Shown here: in pieces, positions 23,970 through 24,779 of the stretch | Numbering within the stretch: position 1 is the first letter of the stretch | Layout of the letters: every line of letters starts with the position of its first letter | NCBI RefSeq assembly: GCF_900215505.1 | Contig: NZ_LT907844.1 | Span: 4,542,001 to 4,606,000 of the forward strand | DNA from: Cohaesibacter sp. ES.047 | Lineage (GTDB): Bacteria; Pseudomonadota; Alphaproteobacteria; Rhizobiales; Cohaesibacteraceae | Reading direction: 5' to 3' | DNA length: 64,000 nucleotides | Translations under genes and position numbers: made by a program | Notes under the pieces: model-generated | Database searches by the model: none | Seen by the model: the letters and a program-made list of their open reading frames with translations, nothing else | Told to the model about the DNA's origin: nothing

Positions 23970-24446
23970 ATGTTTCACACATTCGCTTCGACTAGCCCCC
24001 AATGCTTTCTGCATACAAAAGCCCGCGTCCTTGTCACGCTGTTGGCGTTGGTCCTGCTTGGTCCGATGACAACCACAGCGTCCGCAGGTCGCGTTGGCGT
24101 CAAGATTGACCTGAGCAGTCAGAAAATGTACGTGACAGTCAACGGCTTTCGCCGTCACACATGGCCGGTCTCGACTGCCCGGCGCGGCTATCGCACCCCC
24201 ATAGGCAGCTTCAGACCAACCCGCATGCATGCCAAGTATTTCTCCAAGAAATACCATGGCTCCCCCATGCCACACTCGATTTTTTTCCGCGGCGGCTATG
24301 CCATTCACGGCACCGGTGCCATCAAGAATCTCGGCCGACCCGCATCCCATGGCTGCGTCCGCCTGCATCCAACCAATGCGCGCAAGCTCTTCGCACTGGT
24401 CAAAAAGAACGGCCCCGCCAACACCCACATCAGCATTCGGCGATGA
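23970..24446 (+). CDS. L,D-transpeptidase (YkuD domain)
   Basis: A 158-residue exported enzyme. A signal peptide (ARVLVTLLALVLLGPMTTTASA) ends near residue 39, and the rest is one YkuD domain with the catalytic signature IHGTGAIKNLGRPASHGCVRL: His113 and nucleophile Cys129. Substrate-side features RTPIGSFRP and GSPMPHSIFF also fit. Such enzymes make 3-3 cross-links or attach proteins to peptidoglycan in the periplasm. The start ATG is preceded by GGGAG. Being a minimal domain it may belong to the small ErfK/YbiS-like group. The upstream GAAACGC motif cluster suggests dedicated regulation. Confidence 0.9.
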   Translation: MFHTFASTSPQCFLHTKARVLVTLLALVLLGPMTTTASAGRVGVKIDLSSQKMYVTVNGFRRHTWPVSTARRGYRTPIGSFRPTRMHAKYFSKKYHGSPMPHSIFFRGGYAIHGTGAIKNLGRPASHGCVRLHPTNARKLFALVKKNGPANTHISIRR

Positions 24447-24482: not shown

Positions 24483-24599
24483 AGGGTCACGAAAAACATG
24501 CAAAAAATGCGCAAAACTGGGCTTTTATCTGAAAATTGAGGGATTTACAGAACCCAAATTAGGGAAAACTAACTATTTATTATCAAAAAATTAAATATA

Positions 24600-24716
24600 T
24601 ACAGGATATTCTAATTTCGTCTCAATATGACACCTTCTCCTCCCTCGGTGTCAGACCTCCCAAGAGACGACACTAGGCGCGGCCCGTTCCTCCTACCACG
24701 GGTTCGCGCTTTTCTT
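24600..24716 (+). ncRNA. Candidate trans-acting small RNA with anti-Shine-Dalgarno loops (ar14/cuckoo RNA-like)
   Basis: Two consecutive hairpins are seen. The first has stem GACACC/GGTGTC (24629-24652) and a 12-base loop TTCTCCTCCCTC. The second has stem GCGCG-G-CCCGT / ACGGG-TT-CGCGC (24677-24709), loop TCCTCCTACC, and is followed by TTTTCTTTTTC as a terminator. A third CCTCCC (24656-24661) lies single-stranded between them. Thus each loop exposes a UCCUCC sequence complementary to ribosome-binding sites. This is the hallmark of the alphaproteobacterial ar14/cuckoo RNA class with CCUCCUCCC loops. An AT-rich stretch (24560-24612) precedes it as possible promoter. The 5' end is estimated. No open frame covers it. 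Confidence 0.7.
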
Positions 24717-24779
24717 TTTCCCAAAATTGCCACAACAAGTCTAAAACCAAGCGCAAACCGGAGCGCCTGAGAGCATCGA

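Follow-up and report, generated by a model that had tools for sequence, protein, structure and literature searches.

The window, a 64,000-nt stretch of the 5.11 Mb genome of Cohaesibacter sp. ES.047, contains a structured RNA element at 24617-24719 on the forward strand, comprising two domains and a terminal U-run. Its conserved upstream neighbour is an L,D-transpeptidase (YkuD) gene at 23970-24446 (+; PF03734, E 1e-19), with 171 nt between this gene and the outer stem of the element. Downstream lies a convergent tfoX-like gene, the assignment of which is sub-threshold (a TfoX_N match of 20.5 bits vs the Pfam cut-off of 30.1 bits). No ORF of at least 60 aa lies wholly between the two genes, in agreement with the gene-free gap reported in a preliminary description of this DNA. 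The A+T-rich leader preceding the element (24560-24616, +), delimited by alignment from the stop codon of a second YkuD gene in the relative G016, may hold a promoter or processing site; a sigma-70 scan of the gap upstream of the element did not find the promoter consensus. Elsewhere in the window, the EcpR1 sRNA (RF02500; 58606-58719, -; 81.4 bits vs a cut-off of 60) was the only Rfam match above its cut-off.

The first domain of the predicted fold is nested. The 5' strand of a 7-bp outer stem (24617-24623, +) pairs with its 3' strand (24664-24670, +), enclosing both an inner hairpin (24628-24653, +), which has a 7-bp stem and the loop TTCTCCTCCCTC (24635-24646) with the anti-Shine-Dalgarno (anti-SD) motif CCUCCC, and an unpaired stretch, GACCTCCCAA (24654-24663, +), with a third anti-SD motif (CCTCCC, 24656-24661). 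A terminator-like hairpin with the loop TTCCTCCTACCA (24687-24698) follows at 24675-24711 (+), and, on direct reading of the sequence, a U-run that is probably an intrinsic terminator at 24710-24719 (+). The three anti-SD motifs and T-run previously described are thus present, with the motifs all within 24600-24716 and the last three T outside this interval. The same description was right about CCUCC being displayed in two loops, but its two simple hairpins are instead an outer stem around the first hairpin and middle CCUCCC, plus the terminator-like hairpin. A terminator scan of the window did not list this U-run hairpin, probably owing to its stem bulge and loop length.

Folding 24614-24718 gave -36.8 kcal/mol (z -5.68), with none of 200 shuffles equally stable, compared with -30 kcal/mol (z -3.3) when the fold was started at 24623 instead; the gain arises because the outer stem encloses the first hairpin and middle motif. 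All three CCTCC stretches have unpaired probabilities of 0.98-1.0. The reverse strand folded with a z of -1.77, and 11 of 200 shuffles were as stable, leading us to reject a reverse-strand RNA at this locus. After local shuffling of the window, the expected number of CCTCC-loop hairpin pairs within 110 nt was 1.4 with stems of at least 5 bp, falling to 0.18 with at least 6 bp and 0.025 with at least 7 bp, against one observed. As the bare two-hairpin pattern is not unusual with loose stems, the comparative evidence carries the case for the element, and a pure chance origin was rejected on the z score of the fold together with covariation.

Synteny and covariation in Cohaesibacter

A DNA search of 60 other genomes returned one clear relative, G016 (85%), together with three weak hits at about E 0.008, of which that in G015 falls in the element. 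The transpeptidase was used as an anchor, with matches in 19 of the 20 family genomes (G005 being the exception), and 18 downstream regions were read, the sole, weak match of G019 having been omitted. The element follows the YkuD gene in 14 of these 18 regions, covering most of the Cohaesibacter genomes, and is absent from this position in the genus mates G007, G012 and G014, and in G018. The best match elsewhere in those three genus mates to model R1, built from the elements, is a true gene for ar14 (RF02344).

In ten genomes the first YkuD gene is immediately followed by a second, and in each of them the element lies behind this second gene. The outer stem begins 1-7 nt past the stop codon of this second gene in nine of the ten (1-2 nt in eight), and 54 nt past it in G016. 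Such proximity suggests a 3'UTR-derived RNA, and we lean towards this origin in most of the genus members carrying the element; on its position directly behind a stop codon in nine relatives, the label of free-standing sRNA gene may be wrong. The window genome has no second YkuD gene among its transpeptidase matches, and has kept the element. The strong similarity between the window and G016 starts at about the point where the second YkuD gene of the latter has its stop codon, and extends through the element, with 43 of 52 positions of the window leader identical to the sequence after that codon. Identity between the window and its nearest relative is 90/105 in the element, 358/469 in the transpeptidase coding sequence, and 36/52 downstream.

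A different arrangement is found in G008, G010 and G017, in which the YkuD gene is followed by a hairpin and T-rich sequence (identified by eye in G017; listed by the terminator scan in G008, and not in G010). After the hairpin, a common TTTAC[A/G]-N17-[G/A]ATAAA stretch was seen by eye in the alignment, and was not picked up by sigma-70 scans of the G008 and G010 loci; an ORF of ~35 aa then precedes the element. A tblastn search with the G010 ORF found it in G010 itself and in G008 (E 0.002), and not in G017, in which the third copy was found by eye. These ORFs (L029 and L030, with L028 by eye), between the YkuD gene and the element, have a hydrophobic start and a basic end, with no Pfam matches in the two scanned, and their arrangement with the element resembles the ccaF1-CcsR locus. 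A search of the locus against plasmids returned no match, and a repeated CCTCC pair at L011 had no stable fold (z +0.89).

Single-sequence minimum-energy folds gave the nested first domain in all 14 elements, that of G008 and of G017 approaching a single long stem-loop with bulges, and the terminator stem varied. Model R1 was built from 13 of the 14 elements, and recovers those 13 by construction, including the window sequence (73.8 bits at 24615-24719), which is in its training set; it also recovers the G017 element, at 24.3 bits. On alignment A5, 92.5% of 321 pair cells were paired, vs 74.5% in shuffles, with slid partners 30-55% paired. Compensatory changes on both sides were found at 20 of 24 base pairs across the 14 genomes, including all seven of the outer helix, and none of 500 shuffles attained any of five measures, it being the case that A5 was fitted to the structure by the model, and that sequence kinship inflates such covariation scores. 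A5 was used in place of alignment A3, which contained three opposite-strand matches. RNAalifold on the plain MAFFT alignment A2 returned the terminator stem only (11 pairs), and did not recover the first domain, an effect of unequal inner-loop lengths and of the misalignment of this region in A2; the two-domain result rests on the single-sequence folds and A5.

The CCTCC core is kept in 14/14 inner loops, 14/14 terminator loops and 9/14 middle bulges, counts that carry selection, as the 14 elements were first picked partly by CCTCC near the gene. At least one CCTCC is fully unpaired in the inner loop of 14/14 single-sequence folds, and in the terminator loop of 11/14; the minimum-energy folds of G001, G006 and G013 pair two bases of the five in the terminator-loop CCTCC. 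As judged from these alignments, stem change around constant loops is independent evidence for the element, and the CCTCC counts are not independent of its presence. The preliminary description held that diverging loops with stems that do not covary would count against it; the relatives show the opposite, with covarying stems and retained loops, and the synteny of the hairpins with compensatory stem changes, which it proposed as a check, is seen. The element is almost certainly a real, conserved structured RNA.

A conserved link between YkuD genes and the element outside Cohaesibacter was rejected after scanning the best 80 of 313 related YkuD loci, five of them Cohaesibacter, up to 700 nt downstream, or less at contig ends. 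In Cohaesibacter, the two-loop arrangement was seen at L115 and L116, and a second YkuD gene intervenes at L114, L163 and L175. The CCTCC regions of L117, L128, L137, L142, L153 and L169 were folded, and the element was absent by eye from all six; the scan alone, on unfolded sequence, reported loop-displayed CCTCC downstream at L123, L129, L144, L145, L161 and L187. No YkuD-linked or Cohaesibacter sRNA was found among the listed titles and abstract starts of open-licence papers.

Rfam scores and complementary start sites

The preliminary description placed the RNA in the ar14/cuckoo class and proposed a covariance search with its models. The resemblance holds, as ar14 is the best Rfam match of the window element and the loops carry anti-SD motifs, but membership does not: the score is 27.6 bits (E 0.0038 for 701 bases) vs a gathering cut-off of 58.8, which none of the 14 elements reaches. 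That of G016 scores 32.0 bits, and the best of the other 12 loci 31.9, with only four giving a listed match at E<=0.5. Genome-wide ar14 searches of the window genome do not list the element, and find two true ar14 genes at other loci (84.3 and 83.8 bits), one (L001) with three serial hairpins and the other (L002) with the same three plus a short extra closing stem; no YkuD gene was recognised near either when ORFs were read by eye. At least one separate ar14 gene exceeds the cut-off in 20/20 family genomes. The element replaces the three serial hairpins with a nested first domain and terminator hairpin, and in place of the ar14 9-mer CCUCCUCCC in each unpaired region the window carries UUCUCCUCCCUC, CCUCCC and UUCCUCCUACCA, sharing the core CCUCC; its stems covary while its loops stay, as is characteristic of ar14. 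On the scores and the nested first domain, formal ar14 membership was rejected.

Formal membership of CcsR was likewise rejected, the CcsR1 model (RF02791) scoring 12.8 bits (E 1.5, chance level) vs a cut-off of 65.3; at L053 the score was 25.1 bits, under the same cut-off. The co-transcription with a DUF1127 gene typical of CcsR/CIN1 was not seen, the upstream gene being YkuD, and two of the small ORFs having no Pfam match. Model R2, made from the element, matched 34 of 249 genomes of the order at E<=0.001, seven of them in the genus, and cmscan of 20 R2-matched loci identified 13 as true ar14 over the cut-off, one a Cohaesibacter ar14. The element and ar14 are therefore kin in design, and the element seems to be a new relative of the ar14-type class with a different architecture, one missed by Rfam models at their cut-offs in 14/14 genomes. 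No transpeptidase was found by tblastn in loci L194-L217, which span ~1.5 kb or less each side. Two loci (L201 and L211), in different genomes of a single genus within the order, each have three tandem ar14 genes within ~500 nt.

In the window genome, GGGAGGA-N4-10-ATG occurs at 119 sites vs 6 for the mirrored pattern. The first 30 sites, none of them beyond 1.54 Mb, were read, and 25 had an ORF of 60 aa or longer; 11 of these 25 genes encode periplasmic receptors, of which ten are of ABC type and one is TctC. The control AAGGAGA occurs at 144 sites vs 20 mirrored, and its first 30 loci, once 10 copies of one repeat and 7 short ORFs were dropped, left a small set of 13 genes, none encoding a receptor (Fisher p 0.006 vs 11/25). 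This enrichment fits the two true ar14 RNAs encoded in the genome just as well as it fits the element. In the portion consulted of the study of NfeR1, the ar14 founder (PMC10746234), the RNA represses ntrB via three anti-SD motifs that are redundant in action, and its target candidates are mostly ABC transport systems, two being confirmed by reporter; by analogy, these published ar14 targets agree with the receptor-rich complementary start sites.

Two side observations concern start sites. An identical start region, AAGGAGATTTTGCCATG, recurs genome-wide in G000 (e.g. L248, L253 and L255), accounting for 10 of the first 30 loci, and is perhaps a multi-copy mobile element. Among 44 window ORFs, the strongest predicted pairing with the element (-15.8 kcal/mol, at a putative start codon) is that of dprA (PF02481; 49799-50971, +).

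Proposed function and rival explanations

The analysis shows a predicted structure with covariation, conserved loops, synteny and a sample of complementary start sites rich in transporter receptor genes. The element is probably an anti-SD regulator. The full reading, which we consider fairly likely, is of an ar14/CcsR/'cuckoo'-like regulatory RNA with a nested first domain, tied to YkuD genes in Cohaesibacter, mostly made from 3'UTRs, and blocking the mRNAs of transporter receptors; our confidence in it is slightly lowered because the terminator loops are partly paired in three folds. In most carrier species, the element would be transcribed as the 3' end of the transpeptidase mRNA (3'UTR and terminator) and processed from it, and in some species it would be made from a small unit also encoding the ~35-aa peptide. 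Its stems would hold CCUCC stretches (three here, two or more elsewhere) in single-stranded form, available to pair with the GGAGG-type ribosome-binding sites of many mRNAs, with transporter receptor genes prominent among them, and such pairing would block translation. In the window genome, the second transpeptidase gene would have been lost, as opposed to never having been present, and the element would have survived behind the first.

Three other explanations may be set against this anti-SD regulator. It is improbable that the element serves only to end the transpeptidase mRNA, as an intrinsic terminator stabilised by a stem upstream, its C/U-rich loops having no pairing role. That would fit its location directly behind the stop codon in 9/10 genomes with a second YkuD gene, and the GC-rich stem and U-run within a gap between convergent genes in the window, but neither a nested first domain nor a constant loop sequence is required for termination, and the loops retain CCTCC in 14/14 genomes while 20/24 stem pairs change on both sides. 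Furthermore, 0/31 terminator-like hairpins in the window have CCTCC in the loop (by a simple scan that also misses the bulged stem of the element itself), and the element is kept in the window without a second YkuD gene. Less probable still is an action in cis, by which the loops would pair with the ribosome site of their own transpeptidase mRNA and limit its translation: the window transpeptidase start site (CGGGAG) ranks third of 44 ORFs in duplex energy (-12.0 kcal/mol vs a median of -8.15), but this ranking is weak, coming from one genome with uncertain start codons, the start sites of relatives vary, with several lacking GGGAG, and the loops are generic rather than tuned to the transpeptidase site.

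The remaining alternative, that the element is a conventional copy of an ar14 gene that has diverged, is unlikely, albeit with an appreciable chance of being correct. It would account for ar14 being the top Rfam match, and for R2 also finding true ar14 genes, yet the window element scores less than half the cut-off, and none of the 14 elements reaches it; the first domain is nested; and the YkuD link is seen in Cohaesibacter only, alongside a separate over-threshold ar14 gene in every genome of the family.

A rather doubtful extension of the anti-SD regulator reading is that the 3'UTR of the transpeptidase mRNA releases a mimic of ribosome sites, by which transporter receptor mRNAs are repressed, with release reporting transpeptidase translation. 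With the outer stem 1-2 nt past the stop codon in eight genomes, terminating ribosomes would open it. If true, folding and release would couple cell-wall cross-linking to nutrient uptake, and a cell-wall gene would possess its own global translation brake.

Comparison with known anti-SD RNAs

If expressed, the element adds a YkuD-linked, nested member to the anti-SD RNAs, and would show that an RNA of this type can originate in the 3'UTR of a cell-wall gene, or relocate there, and persist once the gene itself has gone. Its coexistence in one cell with two ar14 RNAs that share its core motif also offers a direct test of target choice by redundant-loop anti-SD RNAs. The available text of a 2011 survey describes anti-SD loops with variable stems (PMC3927594), and that of a further paper the alpha-r8 siblings SisA-D among the alphaproteobacterial RNAs bearing anti-SD motifs (PMC12559287).

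The element shares with ar14/NfeR1 a length of ~100-120 nt, loops with CCUCC(UCCC), variable stems and a terminator-like last hairpin, and by analogy would be expected to share the blocking of ribosome sites, with transporter mRNAs among its likely targets. They differ in architecture, as ar14 has three serial hairpins each with its 9-mer, according to the consulted part of PMC10746234, whereas the element has two domains, with the middle motif in a bulge. Its likeness to CcsR1-4 and CcaF1, of the CIN1 locus of Rhodobacter, lies in the CCUCC motif from which that family is named, and in a possible origin behind a protein gene: in the sections seen of PMC8625941 and PMC10253847, the CcsR RNAs are 3'UTR-derived, being processed from the ccaF1 3'UTR, and in three Cohaesibacter genomes the ~35-aa ORF precedes the element. 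Unlike CcsR, it occurs singly instead of in a set of four, next to YkuD or to an unrelated small ORF that matches nothing in Pfam. Finally, the 'cuckoo' RNA family (Reinkensmeier and Giegerich 2015), compared here through its description in citing papers, is characterised there by anti-SD loops on stems free in sequence, and the element, which has features of this kind, may resemble it in the broad sense.
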